In this document: positions 13,910 through 60,042 of the stretch, one piece after another
Position numbering within the stretch: the stretch's first letter is position 1
Layout of the letters: each line of letters begins with the position of its first letter
DNA from: Geosiphon pyriformis
Taxonomy: Eukaryota; Glomeromycota; Glomeromycetes; Archaeosporales; Geosiphonaceae
Assembly (NCBI GenBank): GCA_016748015.1
Contig: JAAOMT010000039.1
Coordinates: 15,933-79,932 of the forward strand
Length of the DNA stretch: 64,000 nucleotides
Direction of reading: 5' to 3'
The notes under the pieces: model-generated
The model's input: only the letters and a program-made list of their open reading frames with translations
The model's database searches: none
Told to the model about the DNA's origin: nothing
Program-made: the position numbers and the translations under genes

Positions 13910-15405
13910 TTACAATTTGATTATTTGAAAGACTTCATACTCCTCGACAGAGAAGTTTACTCTTTCATGTTCTGAATCAGGCATTATAGCGTGCTCATAA
14001 GAATTATCGCTTCGACAATAGCATCCAGACTTATTTTGAAAATCATCACCTCCCATTACAAGATTAGACTCGCCAAATTTAGGTCCATATTTAGAGGAAT
14101 AATTACCTCCATGTTCGACACTAAATTTGCTAAGTTTAGCATTTTCAGCTTTCCCATTTCCAAGGGAGAAAATAAAACTTCCATCTCCCTTTGATAAACG
14201 GCCACCAGAATGCCAAGATACTGGGTTATATCCGCCAATCAGTTGACCAGTTTCTTTCACTTTGATAACAGTGACTGTTGCTCGTTTATCATTACATAAT
14301 CGGTGAAAATCGGCTGGAGTGAATCCGTCTCGACTGCCTTGAAGTAACAAAGTAATTTTATATTCAAGTTGGTTTTGAAAAGGAGTATTCTCGTCTTTGT
14401 CCTCAATCCAGTGAAGAAGCTGTTTTAAATTATGTATTTCAAGAAGTTTTGTTCGTAATCGTAATGGCTGAGCGTCTACAGACGTTTGATGACTCCCCGG
14501 TACTAAATAATGATGTAAAAGATCCTCATATAAAGTTCCGGGCAAGATTTTTTCAAACGGTTTTACTTTGTAGTAGAAGTCAACGGAAGATATATGAAAG
14601 AAACGGATAAAAGGTAGAAATTCTTCAATTATCCCATTAAAGGCTTCAAAGTTTTCATCCGTCCAGTTAGAGATTTCTTTTATATCAATATTGTTAGCCA
14701 ATTTAGCAGCTCCCCATTCCACAACCTTTTCCCATATTTCAGCTTCTTGCAAATCAAAGAGATCTCTTTGTAGGAATGAAACTAAAGCACATTGATCAAG
14801 CGAGGTGAAATCTTGAGAGTTGAAGATCGCAGCTGGATTTCTAACAGCTATCTCGGTAAAGAAATCCTGTAGCTTTTTAAAGGATGGATACTTGTATGAT
14901 GTTTCACGTAAAGTGAGAAAATTTTCTTTCAACTCTTTTGCATGGTGTTCAATTAAGTAGTCTTCAAGGTGGTTAATGAGCTTTTCCAAAATGAGCTCTT
15001 CAGCGGCAACGATTAATTCTAAAATTTTAGGCACTTCGTATTTGTTAAGTTCTATTTCACCGCTATACATGTATCTAAACAAAAACCAAAAATATTAAAT
15101 ACTAGAAATAAAATACTAATAAATGTATATTGAACAAACTAAACTCACCGAAGTATCACCTCAAAAATTTGAGGAGAAATATTAGGTTCAGAAAAAAGAA
15201 TAATGCCATTTTCTCTTTGAACCAAATTACTAGAGAGAGCAGCGGCAAAATACGAGGATCTTGTTGCTAAGACCAACCCATGAGCGTGAAAAGTTATCGC
15301 ATTAGGTCCATTACCAACGGTAATTCTAACATCAGAACATTTTTGGTTATTCAATAGGCTCGCAAAATCGAAAGACAAATCGTGGAGGAGTTGTTGGGAT
15401 CCCAT
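13910..15405 (-). CDS. BTB-BACK-TLDc domain protein, intact
   Basis: Two exons, 15149-15405 and 13910-15074 on the minus strand, joined by a 74-base intron (GTGAGT..TTTAG), encode 473 residues. Domains in order: BTB/POZ (about residues 20-90; LLNNQKCSDVRITVG, FHAHGLVLATRSSYFAAAL), BACK (about 100-210; LINHLEDYLIEH, FFHISSVDFYYKVKPF) and TLDc (about 295-470; GSRDGFTPADFHRLC, IGGYNPVSW, FIFSLGNG, GPKFGESNLVM, VEEYEVFQI). BTB-BACK proteins often act as Cullin-3 adaptors, and TLDc is a fold linked to oxidative stress and V-ATPase regulation. The combination is strongly expanded in arbuscular mycorrhizal fungi. The substrate is unknown. The exon join is supported by the identical structure of the 39.9 kb paralogue. 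The upstream region is one arm of a palindrome. Confidence 0.93.
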
Positions 15406-35012: not shown

Positions 35013-36672
35013 TTATAAGATAGTCCTATTTCTCACCAATCTGGGACTTTTCAAAGATCCTGGTACCACTTGAAAGACTTCATAATCATCCACAAAGAAA
35101 TTTACTCTTCCATTTGCAGCTTCCTCTAAAACAGGAAACTCATATGAGTTTGATTTTTTACAATGACATCCAAGTGTTGTTTGGAAATTATCGCTACACA
35201 AAGCCAAATCATGGCCTTTACCAAAAATTGGACCGTAGGAGGATGAATACGCAATTCCATCACCAGATTGGAATCTACTGATTTTAGCGTTTCTTGTTCT
35301 TCCGTCTCCCAAAGAAAAAATAAAACTTTCATCACCTTTGATCCATGGGTTACGTGGATCCCAGCTGACAGGGTTATAACCACCAATCATATTTCCAGAT
35401 CCCTTGACTTTGATGACGATTATTGTGGCTCCTTTTTTATCGCACAGACGATGAAAATCAGCTGGCGTGAAGCCATCTCTACTGCCACGAAGTAAAAGTT
35501 TTAGCTCATATTGAGATGTGGCTCTCGGAGGTGTCATTTTATCATTTCCTTCGATCCAAGCACTTATTCTACGTATATGCTTTGCTTTCAATAGTGTGGA
35601 AACAGAATTAAATAAGGAAGGTAATAAAGAGATCCTTCCAACTGGCATTGTTTGAGTAGAGTTTCGTGTCGATGGTGGTATACTTTGAGATGGAGGAAAT
35701 GAAGGTGAGGGCGAAATTCGATTTATTATCACAGAATTTCGGATAGAGTTTCCATCAACCAAAAAGTGACGCAGCAATTGTTCATATAAAGCCGCTGGCA
35801 ATATCCTTGCATATGGTTTGACTTTGAAATAAAACTCATCAGAATCCATATTAAAAAATCGAATCAACGGAATCAACTGTTTTAATGTCATTTGCAAATC
35901 ACTAAAGTCTTTTTGAGACCACGTTTTAACATTTTCTTTGATCGAGGGATTCTGAGCAATACCCCATCGTAGTATATTTTCCCAAATATCGACTTCATCA
36001 ACATCCAAGTCATCTCTCTTTAGCATTTCTAATAAGGACGTTTCTTGGAATGATATGAAGTCATCAGATTTAAACAAGATGGTTGGAAAACCTGTTAACA
36101 AATCTTTACAATAGTCTTGAAGTTTAGTGAAGGATGCAAAGAGGTAGGCGGTTTGATGAACGGCGATAAAATTTTGTTGAAGTGATTTTGAATAGTTTTC
36201 AATTAAATGATCTTGAATATAGTCGATAATTTCTTCAAGAAAAAATTCATCTGCTGCCACTAGTATGTTAAAAACTGTGATTAAATCAAGCCCCTCCAAG
36301 GAGATATTGCCACTATACAGATATCTAAATAAAAAAATAGATCGTAAGTAGAGTTTAAAAATGATGAGATATAAAAATGAAATTTATAAAGAATTCTAAA
36401 TAATTAATATACTTTAAAATAATTTCAAAAGTTTTGGGTGCCATATTTGGCTTCTTTATAATATACAAATTATTCTCACGTTTCACCCAATCATTCTTTA
36501 ATGCAGCCGCAAAATAAGGTGATCTAGCAACCAGCACAGCCAAATGAGCTTGAAACGTTTTCTTGTTCTGTTCCTCGCCAACAGTAATAATTGCATCATA
36601 GAAAACGTTACTTTCTAACAACGAAGTCAAATCTTGAGATAAATTAGCGAAAAAATTTTGATTTGGTGCCAT
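35013..36672 (-). CDS. BTB-BACK-TLDc domain protein, divergent intact paralogue
   Basis: Exons 36413-36672 and 35013-36324 on the minus strand (88-base intron GTATAT..TTTAG in the same position and phase as in the other copies) give 523 residues. BTB: LLESNVFYDAIITVGEE, FQAHLAVLVARSPYFAAAL. BACK: FFLEEIIDYIQDHLIENY, IRFFNMDSDEFYFKVKPY. A Ser/Pro-rich linker absent from the other copies follows (ISPSPSFPPSQSIPPSTRN). TLDc: LLLRGSRDGFTPADFHRLC, IGGYNPVSWDPRNPW, FIFSLGDGRTRNAK, YGPIFGKGHDLALCSDNF, VDDYEVFQV, with an extra basic tail. It lacks the promoter element shared by the other loci and is the most distant member. It is likely the older, independently regulated gene. Its role is probably a Cullin-3 adaptor, substrate unknown. 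Confidence 0.93.
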
Positions 36673-39920: not shown

Positions 39921-41417
39921 ATGGCGTCTCAACAACTCTCCCACGCTTTATCTCACGATTTAACGAGCTTATTGAATAATGAAATATTCTCTGATGTTAA
40001 GATTATCGTTGGTGATGGTCTTAATAATAAAACTTTTCACGGTCATTCGCCGATTTTAGCAGCAAGATCCTCTTATTTTGATGTAGCACTCTCTAATAAT
40101 TGGGTTAAAAGAGAAAATAAAACCATTATCTTCTCTAAGCCTAATATTTCACCACAAATGTTTGAGGTGATACTTCGGTAAGTTTAGTTTGCTTAAAATA
40201 TACTTGCTAATATTTTATTCATACATTTTATTATTGTTTTATCTAGATATTTGTATAGTGGTGAAATATCTCTTAAGGAATACGGAGTACCTAAAATATT
40301 AGAATTGCTTATTATCGCTGATGAGCTCATTTTGGAAAATCTAATTAACCACCTGGAAAGCTATCTAATTGAAAATCATGCCAAAGAGCTAGAAGAAAAC
40401 TTTGCCTCTTTGTATGAAATATCATTTATGCATGATTCGTTCAAAAAGCTGCAAGAATTCTGCACACAAATAGCAGCTAAAAGTCCAGCTATAATCTTCA
40501 GATCCCAAGATTTCACCTCCTTAAGTAAGAATTTTCTTTCCTCAATTTTGTCCCGCGATGACTTTATTATGGAAGAAATAGAAATATGGAAAAAGATTGT
40601 GGAATGCGGAGTTGCTAAATTGGGTAACAATATTAAGTTAGAAGAGATTCTTAACTGGACAGATGAGAATTTTAACGCCTTTAAGGAAATAATTGAAGGA
40701 TTTCTACCTTTAATCCGGTTCTTTCACATATCTTCTGTTGACTTCTATCACAAAGTAAAACCATTTGCGAGAATTTTACCCAGAACTTTATATGAAGATC
40801 TTTTACATCATTATCTAGTACCGGATAGTCATCAAAAGTCTGTAGATGCTCAACCATTACGATCAAATGTTGATTCAAAGCTTCTTCAGTTGCATAATGT
40901 GAGGCAGCTTGACCACTGGATCCAGGGCAAAGATAAAAATACTCCTTTTCAAAGCCAACTTGGAAATAACTTTAATTTGTTACTTCGAGGCAGTCGAGAC
41001 GGATTTACCCCATACGATTTTCATCGATTATGTGATTACAAAGGATCCACAATTAGTGTTATCAAAGTGAAAGTAACTGGTCAACTGATTGGCGGGTATA
41101 ACCCACAATCTTGGTCTTCTCGTGGAAAATGGTTAAATGGAAAGGGAAGTTTTATTTTTTCCCTTGGAGATGGCAAAGTTGAAAATGCTAAACTTAGCAA
41201 ATCTGTTAAAGAAAACGGACCTTTTGATAGCTCAATCCGTGGACCCGAATTTGGCATGTATAGTATTGTAATGAAAAGTAAAGATTTTCAAAATAACCCT
41301 GGATGCAATTGTAGAAAGGATTCATCATATGAGTACGCGATAATGCCTGATTCAGAAAATAAACAAGTAGACTTCTTTGTCGAGGAGTATGAAGTTTTTC
41401 AAATAAGAAAACTTTAA
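39921..41417 (+). CDS. BTB-BACK-TLDc domain protein, intact
   Basis: Exons 39921-40177 and 40247-41417 (69-base intron, GTAAGT..TCTAG) encode 475 residues. BTB: LLNNEIFSDVKIIVGD, FHGHSPILAARSSYFDVAL. BACK: LILENLINHLESYLIENH, FFHISSVDFYHKVKPF. TLDc: LLLRGSRDGFTPYDFHRLC, IGGYNPQSWSSRGKW, FIFSLGDGKVENAK, GPEFGMYSIVM, NPGCNCRKDSSYE, VEEYEVFQIRKL. Intron position and phase match the 13.9 kb gene. The gene carries the shared promoter element and is followed by the flank duplicated at 18.7-20.1 kb. It is likely functional. The expected role is an adaptor that brings a target to a Cullin-3 ligase, with TLDc of unknown partner. Confidence 0.94.
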
Positions 41418-52599: not shown

Positions 52600-52890
52600 T
52601 AACTCAGTGGATAGATTGTAACATAAATAATAGAAAATATTAAGCATTGCTTTAATTATTATTTCTTGCATGGTCAGGTTTTATTAAGCAATGCCTAAAA
52701 AGAATCTCTATTTATCATAATTCCACAATTCCAGCAGTTGTACATGTTGAGCTCTCTAATTTTTTAGATAATAGATATTTTTGATTTCTCAGTTTTGATG
52801 ATTAAATATTGTTAAAAGCAATAATATGCCCAACAAAAGTATTTTTAAACAGCTTTTTAAATGATTTTCTTTGTCTTGCAATTTATCCTG
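52600..52890 (-). pseudogene. OrfB/TnpB (Fanzor-like) relic, C-terminal end, copy B
   Basis: This stretch aligns by eye with 58070-58390: gattgtaacac/ataa near the start, (t/c)tgcatggtca against ctgtatggtca, aattccagcagttgtaca against aattccggctgttgtaca, aagcaataatatgcccaaca against aagcgataatatgcccaaca, and tgtcttgcaatt. In the minus direction it keeps a zinc-ribbon-like LNMYNCWNCGIMINRD, equivalent to CxNC..xxDRDxNGAR of TnpB-type nucleases, but little else stays in frame. It is a more decayed copy than 58.1 kb, and its upstream part is AT-rich and unrecognisable. Confidence 0.55.
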
Positions 52891-53237
52891 TTTTTTTTTT
52901 GCATTGAGGAGTGCGCCCCAACTACCACCTAATAAAATATGAAACTCGTTAATTTATCATGTTTAATATTTTAAACAATAATATTCAATTAACAAATAAA
53001 AATATGTAAATATGTAAATTTACTTTGCGAATATAAAATAATATTATATTATATATATAATTAAGATTTTTACATAATTAACTATATAAATAAAATATTT
53101 TAAAGTCGTAAAAAAATATCATTAATTTATTCTTTATTTAAAAATAATCAAATGTTTTTTGAATATTCTTTTAAATTAAAATCAATTTTATTTTATTTGT
53201 ATTTCTTAAAATTAAAAGAATAGACAGTGGAAGGATC

Positions 53238-57450: not shown

Positions 57451-58069
57451 CATCACAATCGGGATCATTTGAAAATTGGAATATAATTGTTTTTTATATA
57501 CATCCAGCCTTTTTCTAAAAAACATTAGTATTATTTAAATGTTTTTTCGAGCAGTTGAAAAGATCACTTGTTAACACCAAATTCATTCTAAAGATATATT
57601 TTAATTTGCAATTCTGTAACTTAGCAGCTTGGAAGAATAAATCATTCAAGGTTTTAGCTAAAATACTGCAGAATAAACAATTATTAAACATATATATATT
57701 AATTGATATTGCTATTTTTTTATAATTTGATTCATTAAAATAAAATAAAAAATATAATGCAATTATTGGCAATATTTTACAAATTTATTTTCAAACTACA
57801 TAATAGCTTATTTATTTTATATTTTTGATAACAAGTAAAACAATTAAGACTTTCTATTATAATTGCTTTTCTTATTTTTAGTTTTGATAATTTTTTTTAC
57901 TTTTTTTTCAAGTAATATCTCTTTCCTTTTTATTAACACCTTATTTTTAAAACACCCAACAATTTATTTAAACCAGGTTTTTAACAATAAAAATTGGGAT
58001 TATCAAAATTCTTAGAAATTTGACTTTTAAAATTTCTTATTAAAGCTCAAATAATAGTTTAACATCGGA
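57451..58069. other. AT-rich spacer
   Basis: Nothing recognisable. An 85-codon minus-strand frame at 57515-57772 has no motif. Confidence 0.4.
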
Positions 58070-58990
58070 TGGATTGTAACACATCAATAATAGGCAATAC
58101 TAAGTATTACTATGTAACGCCTATTATTTCCTGTATGGTCACCGTAGGATCCCCCGAGCGCCACTTTCATCTCTATATTTAACAATCACACAATTCCGGC
58201 TGTTGTACACTTTGGACCCTCCAATTCTTTGATATCTAAGCTTCGTTCTGGATAATAACACGGATCCCCAATTCCTCGGCCTTGATGATCAGACGTTGTC
58301 AAAAGCGATAATATGCCCAACAAAGCATTTTACGAACCATTTTTCGTGTAATATTTGTTGTCTTGCAATTCACCATGTCCAACACTGTAAAAGGAAAAAT
58401 GACAATGGCGTCGAATTCACGGGTAAAGAATCCAATTGATTTCAGGTGAACTTCACTTTGCAAATGTATAACTTTTCACCGCATCTGAAAAATTACATTT
58501 CCAGTAGCCGGGCCATTTTATTCTTACGTTTTGAGGAGGATACTAATAACTTATCCTTTTGGAAGATGAGATAGTCCAAGTAATTACAAATGCAAACTAT
58601 AAATCCAATAGAACGTTCACCAATCTTGCCTACATCTTTCGTGGGAGAGTACCATATAAAAGGTATACGGATGCCGTGATAAATGGAGACTGCATGAAAG
58701 ATCCATCCGCTTGGGTTTCGCGGAGCTGTTTTTGTATCTCGTATACCTAGGTAAACTTCCACACGTTAGTTTTGCGAGAGTAGGCTAGCTTGTTATCTGA
58801 CATTATCTTGGAAAACCGGTCACCTATTATTATTCCTCTTTTTTTTCGAAAATGAAGAGGCCACAAAGCGTGCTTGCCATTATCCAGAATGGTAATAGGC
58901 TTGTAACTATGTGTGGTAAGCACCGACGGATTATGGAGATGAGTGATATAAAACCTGCTCCATGTGGATTTGAAAAATTTTGCGTACGAA
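58070..58990 (-). pseudogene. OrfB/TnpB (Fanzor-like) RNA-guided nuclease relic, copy A
   Basis: The minus strand keeps, in order and across frame changes, the marks of OrfB_IS605/TnpB-type proteins: a beta-rich segment (ITILDNGKHALWPLHF); the RuvC-I region AVSIYHGIRIPFIWYSPTKD, where family members have xSIDPGVRTFxxWY, so the catalytic Asp is Tyr (codon at 58679-58681); GKIGERSIGFIVCICNYLDY and SSSKRKNKMARLLEM; IGFFTREFDAIVIFPFTV; YYRF then (stop) QRLIIKAEELGIRVIIQNEA with the RuvC-II Glu (58242-58244); a stop replacing Tyr of NEAYTSKTC; loss of the first CxxC; then IGGSKVYNSRNCVIVKYRDE and SGARGIL with the RuvC-III Asp. Eukaryotic members are Fanzor nucleases carried by transposons. This copy is dead. 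The N-terminal limit is unclear and may reach beyond 59000. Confidence 0.75.
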
Positions 58991-60042
58991 TTGTCATTGT
59001 TTATCGCTGATCTTTTCGAGATCGAAATGATCGAGTGTGCTGATAAAAACGTTTGTCCCTTTTTGGTTCAGGTTTGAATTTTGCTAATTTATATTACGCC
59101 TAATCAGTAATCAATGCTTCATCGAAGCAAAATACCGAAATACACAACAGTTCACATGAACTTGCGCTTGCCCCATTTTGGAGTTTCTTGTCTTCGTGTT
59201 CATTAGCTCTCCTTCCCTGTAGTAGCAAATAAAAACTATATTGATGGCAAGAATATCTTGTGAAAGATGTATTGGAAGAGGTCGAAGGCAAAGCGGCAAA
59301 GCCTATCGCGATGGGTGATCACAATTTCCGAGACCATTGCGCGGCTTCTTTCTTCCAATAGGATCTTTAAGCCCTAATCGTTTGAAATTGATACCTGACC
59401 CGAGATCGCTGAGGAGTTCTTAGGTTGGAAATCGAGAGAGGAGGAGTTGTTTTTGTCGCTCGAGATCCTGTTTTTGCTTGTACTAGGCGTAGAAGTAAAG
59501 TTTCTTGGTGGTATCAGCATTTTGAGAAGTTTGTTCAGGAAAGGAGTATTTATTTTCGCGGTCAAGCATTACTAAGCAGGTTATTGGTATTTTTATTGAT
59601 GGCATTATTAAGCAAATCTTTCATCAGTTAGAATGTCTTTTAGATTTTCCTAATGTATCATTGATTGGTGCTACCAAACCCAGCCAATCCACAATAAGGA
59701 TGATGACATCTAAGCGGGAGTGTAATGTGACGCAACAGTTGACATAGGTTATAAACAGAGCATAGGATTGGTCCGCGGCACAAGAAGAGAGACAAATACT
59801 CAACTTATGTGTTTTAGACCTTATCATTTCTATTATAAAATCATCTCAATTCACACCCTCTGATCCTCGACGTTCCAAGGTTCACAACTAGCGAACACAA
59901 GGCGCTTTTGAGAAACTGGTTTCTTTCCTCCTTGGACAAAAGGCCACACTTCGAGCAGATTATTTATCATTCCTTTAATCTCAAACATCTTAACTATCCT
60001 TCTATAAAGTTACCTAGCTAAAGCGTAAAAATTTTCACAACA
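58991..60042. other. intergenic or unresolved stretch upstream of VAP
   Basis: Minus-strand frames at 59100-59299, 59374-59565 (Ser/Thr-rich, NFTSTPSTSKNRISSDKNNS) and 59624-59827 could include the decayed N-terminal part of the Fanzor-like gene or its host element, but no motif proves it. The last ~100 bases are the leader of the VAP gene. Confidence 0.35.

Follow-up and report, generated by a model that had tools for sequence, protein, structure and literature searches.

Between positions 58067 and 59627 of the window (the whole 64,000-nucleotide stretch analyzed here) lies what is almost certainly an IS607-type transposon copy, now dead, with relics of tnpA and of a Fanzor2 nuclease gene (Table 1). 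The end sequences of its family match the window element at 91% (left) and 95% (right), and the last 29 nt of its right end are exactly the family sequence; both subterminal repeats of its left end are damaged. The nuclease DNA is 80% identical to the family majority across 58081-59207. The window copy can make neither protein. A preliminary description had recognized a Fanzor relic here, and that much stands, but the extent it gave was too small, and the recombinase half and the true ends of the element were missed. A second family copy, 5′-truncated and more decayed, occupies 52609-52891 (minus strand, right end at 52609), with 80% identity to the family right end and a protein piece matching at E 1.8e-5.

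Table 1. Features of the decayed element and of its nuclease relic
Feature	Coordinates	Strand	Remarks
Whole decayed element, almost certainly IS607-type, 1561 bp	58067..59627	minus	59627 is the left end, 58067 the right end
Left end, non-coding	59546..59627	minus	Matches family left-end positions 3-66 and 81-95
tnpA relic, IS607-type serine recombinase	59205..59486	minus	Pieces 59387-59486, 59263-59319, and 59205-59261; DNA match to family majority
Fanzor2/TnpB nuclease gene relic	58139..59207	minus	
Block ITILDNGKHALW	58896-58861	minus	Upstream of RuvC-I
RuvC-I block VSIYHGIRIPFIWYSP, including VSIYHG	58643..58690	minus	Catalytic Asp and Pro of DPG gone (IYHG)
Block FFTREFDAIVI	58430-58398	minus	
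Block RLIIKAEELGIRVIIQNEA	58239..58295	minus	Relocated RuvC-II glutamate (QNEA), then gap over first CxxC
Second zinc knuckle and RuvC-III region	58145..58222	minus	
Block GGSKVYNSRNC	58222-58190	minus	Second zinc knuckle, one Cys lost
Block RDESGARGIL	58174-58145	minus	RuvC-III (RDESGARG)
Right end, non-coding	58067..58138	minus	Follows the stop; candidate transposase site and candidate scaffold of a guide RNA; conserved in the family
Imperfect palindrome, 21-nt arms, 81% complementary	58086..58128	.	Two inverted TAWYGCYTAT copies

The six peptide blocks that the preliminary description had singled out each occur once in the minus-strand frames of the window and in the order it claimed. They span 58896-58145 and are spread over three reading frames, and for this reason we regard the window nuclease as a relic. 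One correction is that ITILDNGKHALW sits upstream of RuvC-I; RuvC-I is the VSIYHG block. Both losses that had been proposed are seen in comparison with the family: the RuvC-I Asp is gone (IYHG in the window vs IDPG in the majority), and the first CxxC falls within a gap of the window copy. The second CxxC pair is also one Cys short (NSRNC vs NCRNC in the majority), and the relocated Glu is retained, with the zinc-finger Cys that follows it deleted. Run on five window fragments by themselves, Pfam recognized no TnpB/OrfB domain, the sole match being unrelated and below cut-off (E 0.0054), and the window place is absent from the 67 places listed in a genome search with PF07282. A leave-one-out query, made of the majority protein pieces of 43 other genomic copies without the window copy, matches the window with a tblastn E of 2.35e-76 combined over the pieces, and the same pieces reversed as a control give no match at E<=1e-3. 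Judged by these sequence comparisons, the block match exceeds chance. The reading of this nuclease as a Fanzor relic draws its support from the family motifs, the consensus profile matches, and the leave-one-out match, with Pfam silent on the window fragments alone.

The family majority was taken over 44 copies, including that of the window; the alignment excludes L059, which has an internal inversion, copies matching the reference over <1.1 kb or >2.3 kb, and L010, a duplicate of L017. The nuclease domain of this majority reads open, and without the window copy there is an open piece of 332 codons. Its motifs are IDPGVRT (RuvC-I), PPFE, NEAYTSKTCSQCG...CRNCG, and DRDENGARGI. The consensus nuclease matches PF07282 at 1.4e-21 and guided_TnpB at 4.7e-24, the latter below that profile's cut-off, and among 28 solved sequences the top match is the TnpB-like protein L79 (PDB 9b0l; E 6.8e-24), which we take to be of mimivirus origin. 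The majority has both the DPG at RuvC-I and a relocated glutamate that precedes the first zinc-finger Cys by six residues (NEAYTSKTC); Yoon et al. give DPG together with this glutamate (ExxxxxxC) as the mark of Fanzors (PMC10711439). The evidence points to a nuclease of Fanzor2 type because it travels with an IS607-type recombinase, and its best matches (L79, a Microcoleus phage protein, and a Trichormus plasmid TnpB) point the same way. Just before RuvC-III there are two sequence types, GGGATTGTGATAG and AAGCTTGTTATGG, with the same right end, so that at least two subfamilies are present.

The element has two protein halves, the recombinase followed by the nuclease. A 45-residue window fragment (59236-59373, minus) matches NCBIfam transpos_IS607 with E 7.1e-9 and 35.5 bits, which is below that profile's whole-protein cut-off of 110 bits, and matches Pfam Resolvase only at E 0.097. 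The consensus recombinase scores 121.6 bits against transpos_IS607, over the cut-off; we assembled this piece by eye from different frames of the consensus, so the score is no proof of an open gene. Its closest solved structures are IS607-type catalytic domains, e.g., those of ISC1904, ISC1926, and IS1535. Across the genome the IS607 TnpA profile finds 30 places, none over cut-off, with the window among them (E 5.5e-6), and Pfam Resolvase finds three over its cut-off, all with stops. Two open frames of the consensus overlap between the recombinase tail and the nuclease start, and the frames of IS607 elements often overlap (PMC6188088).

No N-terminal DNA-binding domain of TnpA was recognized by profile or in the upstream frames (a comparison from which three left-end loci were left out), and in 29 of the 30 places the TnpA profile match starts at position 49 or later. 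A TnpA without a recognized N-terminal domain may be a distinguishing feature of the family, but this is only a lead because just five of the 30 matches begin near the start of the catalytic domain (positions 49-54) and are hence informative. The one match starting near the beginning of the profile (positions 3-165), at L091 (G000 C328:97862-98338, minus), contains six stops and is perhaps an older IS607 element that retained the domain; Pfam gave no match on one L091 fragment. Recombinase matches with identical score and stops occur at the end of C310 and the start of C397 of G000, so the assembly may hold one locus twice.

The ends of the element are sharp. An alignment of 13 copies makes the right end visible, with unrelated sequence beyond it, and the genome has at least 40 matches to the family right-end sequence (40 of 69 candidates scored) and at least 42 to the left-end sequence (40 of 74 scored). 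Among ends selected because their match to the family sequence stops no more than a few bases short of the tip, 45 right and 25 left ends adjoin unrelated flanks. CC terminates 33 of these 45 right ends; the left ends start with CC in eight of 25 cases and with C followed by C or T in 12 of 25, against a CC background of 2% in the flanks. IS607 inserts at GG without duplication (PMC6188088). A G directly follows the right end in 32 of the 45 cases, and in IS607 the guide-RNA scaffold includes the fixed nucleotide on the right side (PMC10711439). Because the left-end signal is weak, we can only infer that CC/GG is the exchange dinucleotide.

The two ends have a repeat in common. In the family consensus the arms of the right-end palindrome are two inverted copies of TAWYGCYTAT, and the left end has two direct copies; in 20,000 mononucleotide shuffles of both ends at most one copy appeared, although the motif was picked after viewing the sequences. 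The window copy has whole TAWYGCYTAT only in its right end (two copies). As this 10-mer is common to the palindrome and the two left-end repeats, the palindrome is probably a transposase site, and IS607 elements have subterminal sites of this kind (PMC6188088). It is also plausible, from the sequence, that a guide RNA arises from the right end, and the palindrome might then be chiefly a folded guide-RNA scaffold and not a binding site for the transposase. We consider this less likely than not. The tail from stop to right end is ~72 nt, comparable with the 75-nt scaffold of SpuFz1 (PMC10432273), the right-end consensus folds with -21.5 kcal/mol (z -3.84), and right-end conservation is 0.899 compared with 0.868, 0.875, and 0.833 at codon positions 1-3, an excess over positions 1 and 2 of 0.027 (interval 0.001-0.050). 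Against this, both arms are copies of a 10-mer that the left end also has twice, and in a separate alignment left-end positions 1-72 and right-end positions 12-82 are equally conserved (0.811 each). Covariation in the hairpin is weak overall: in 35 of the 45 right ends (the other ten, left out, mostly have deletions within or next to the hairpin) two-sided pair changes fill 12 cells, a value reached in 22 of 500 shuffles, and for an alternative fold five cells, reached in 20 of 500. RNAalifold predicts no pair on the right ends, and Rfam gives no relevant match in seven loci at a permissive setting or in the window at the gathering threshold. A candidate long-range stem between the coding part and the tail was dropped because, by eye, the second sequence type at the same place does not keep it.

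The wide occurrence of Fanzor1 in fungi, within many kinds of transposon (PMC10432273, PMC3627910), raises the possibility that a classical eukaryotic DNA transposon, one with inverted repeats and target duplications, picked up a Fanzor1, and that the recombinase pieces belong to an unrelated neighbor. We find this very improbable, since recombinase, nuclease, and both ends recur together across the family and the hallmarks of such a transposon are missing: a search of 13 loci for the right end in reverse complement gave only weak scattered matches and no inverted terminal repeats, and the 13 copies with both ends have no target duplication (flank repeats average 1.0 base vs 1.7 for permuted pairs). 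In addition, Yoon et al. encountered no Fanzor1 in IS607 transposons (PMC10711439). Prokaryotic DNA contaminating the assembly, a thought prompted by best outside matches that are cyanobacterial, phage, archaeal, or bacterial, can hardly explain decayed copies on dozens of contigs with differing flanks, nor a window copy that adjoins eukaryotic genes (MSP, BACK-TLDc). The occurrence of these gene families in AT-rich DNA suggests that the host is an arbuscular mycorrhizal fungus, although an 18S rRNA pattern search gave no hit.

The IS607-type family to which we assign the window element is large and decayed, in agreement with the suggestion that this genome carries or carried a Fanzor family. 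All 67 PF07282 places are over cut-off, and a 200-aa nuclease piece has at least 162 matches (150 of 457 candidates scored). Searching with the window DNA gave at least 77 matches (40 of 126 candidates scored) and at least 39 further places, by our own count besides the window and with two adjoining C398 matches taken as one; the main match at each place is 68-78% identical to the window. The family probably exceeds 100 copies. The intact copies that might have lain elsewhere did not appear: none of the copies examined is intact, and among the matches listed the stop-free part never exceeds 127 of the 200 positions. Measured against their majority, the 44 copies show a mean difference of 15.1%, and the window copy one of 11.2% (1299 positions compared). 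The median number of frame-breaking indels per copy is 21, which is also the number in the window copy, and no copy has fewer than 10; of the substitutions, 44% are C>T or G>A, and these substitution and indel counts depend on the alignment. Codon positions 1 and 2 are more conserved than position 3 (difference 0.037, interval 0.021-0.053), so the protein was under selection during the spread of the copies. The family is apparently an extinct member of the known IS607-Fanzor2 kind.

Several copies are rearranged. L055 and L057 (1116 and 759 bp) and L065 and L071 (about 0.4 and 0.7 kb) are internally deleted short copies with left- and right-end pieces, and at L053/L059 (G000 C262:221798-223652) the inner part is inverted relative to both ends. 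At L066 and L067 the left end is represented, near oriented position 200, by its first 54-56 nt, which are 93-98% identical to the family sequence; neither locus shows a right end within 2.4 kb or a nuclease region matching the reference copy. As to an autonomous partner with the same left end, no transposase was seen by eye in the six frames of L065, L066, L067, and L071. Four further loci, L001, L003, L004, and L050 (G000 C354, C114, C250, and C354), form a separate, younger-looking TnpB/Fanzor-type family with 82-91% DNA identity, whose best solved match is also L79; the nuclease match of L001 contains a single stop, and L001 matches PF07282 at 2.5e-20.

Before its decay the element very probably coded on the minus strand of the window for TnpA and, downstream, for a Fanzor2 (TnpB-type) RuvC nuclease. 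TnpA would have mobilized the element in double-stranded form, with exchange at a dinucleotide shared by both sites, presumably CC/GG. As in known Fanzor/TnpB systems, the nuclease may have used as its guide a right-end RNA reading into the flank, and guided cutting of the matching site would have favored spread of the element. The family multiplied to dozens of copies and then decayed through substitutions and frame-breaking indels.

The IS607-type Fanzor2 elements of Acanthamoeba and giant viruses (ACa-1, ACa-2, ISvMimi_1/2; PMC3627910) also combine a serine recombinase with Fanzor2 and lack terminal inverted repeats and target-site duplications; in contrast, the family here is a large cellular one, decayed in every copy examined, and its TnpA has no recognized N-terminal DNA-binding domain. 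In the phage collection the best match is Microcoleus phage WOL31425.1, with 43% identity over the nuclease piece; it shares DPG and has SEAYTSKTC, but unlike the family here has no TnpA annotated alongside. In the plasmid collection the best match is the TnpB of a Trichormus plasmid, 40% identical across the nuclease piece. Cyanobacterial IS607 TnpBs with DPG and the relocated Glu (pro-Fanzors, PMC10711439) have the same nuclease features in prokaryotic or phage hosts, and our phage and plasmid matches agree with the cyanobacterial origin that Yoon et al. propose. A peptide-pattern search of viral contigs and prokaryote genomes gave no confirmed relative, whereas tblastn in phages and plasmids did yield some. 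Spu-1 of Spizellomyces punctatus, which carries the Fanzor1 SpuFz1, is likewise a multicopy fungal element with a conserved tail of ~75 nt from stop to right end, but its genes are full-length, inverted repeats are present, and a guide RNA has been observed (PMC10432273); we found none of these here.

Bao and Jurka list fungal Fanzor2 for four yeasts, and in that account the recombinase-bearing Fanzor2 elements are named from Acanthamoeba and viruses (PMC3627910). Fanzor2 is broadly present in fungi (Saito et al., PMC10432273) and Fanzor elements reach up to hundreds of copies (Yoon et al., PMC10711439), so neither a fungal host nor the copy number is new in kind. Full-text literature searches found no paper joining IS607 with Mucoromycota or mycorrhizal fungi and, for Fanzor with Rhizophagus or mycorrhizal, only a plant review. 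Here a bacterial-type serine-recombinase transposon with an RNA-guided nuclease appears to have multiplied in a large eukaryotic genome and later decayed. Dozens of relics whose ends survive keep, as fossils would, a record of Fanzor2 ends, repeats, and target preference, and they show where to seek living relatives with a testable guide RNA. One could go further and imagine a eukaryote-adapted IS607 lineage whose TnpA shed its N-terminal domain, whose palindrome was at once a site for the transposase and the scaffold of the guide RNA, and which reached 100 or more copies before becoming extinct in a fungus, probably an arbuscular mycorrhizal one; as a whole this combination is speculative, and we think it improbable. 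Elsewhere in the window, three genes with BACK and TLDc domains (13910-15094, 35013-36383, and 40197-41417) suggest a local expansion.
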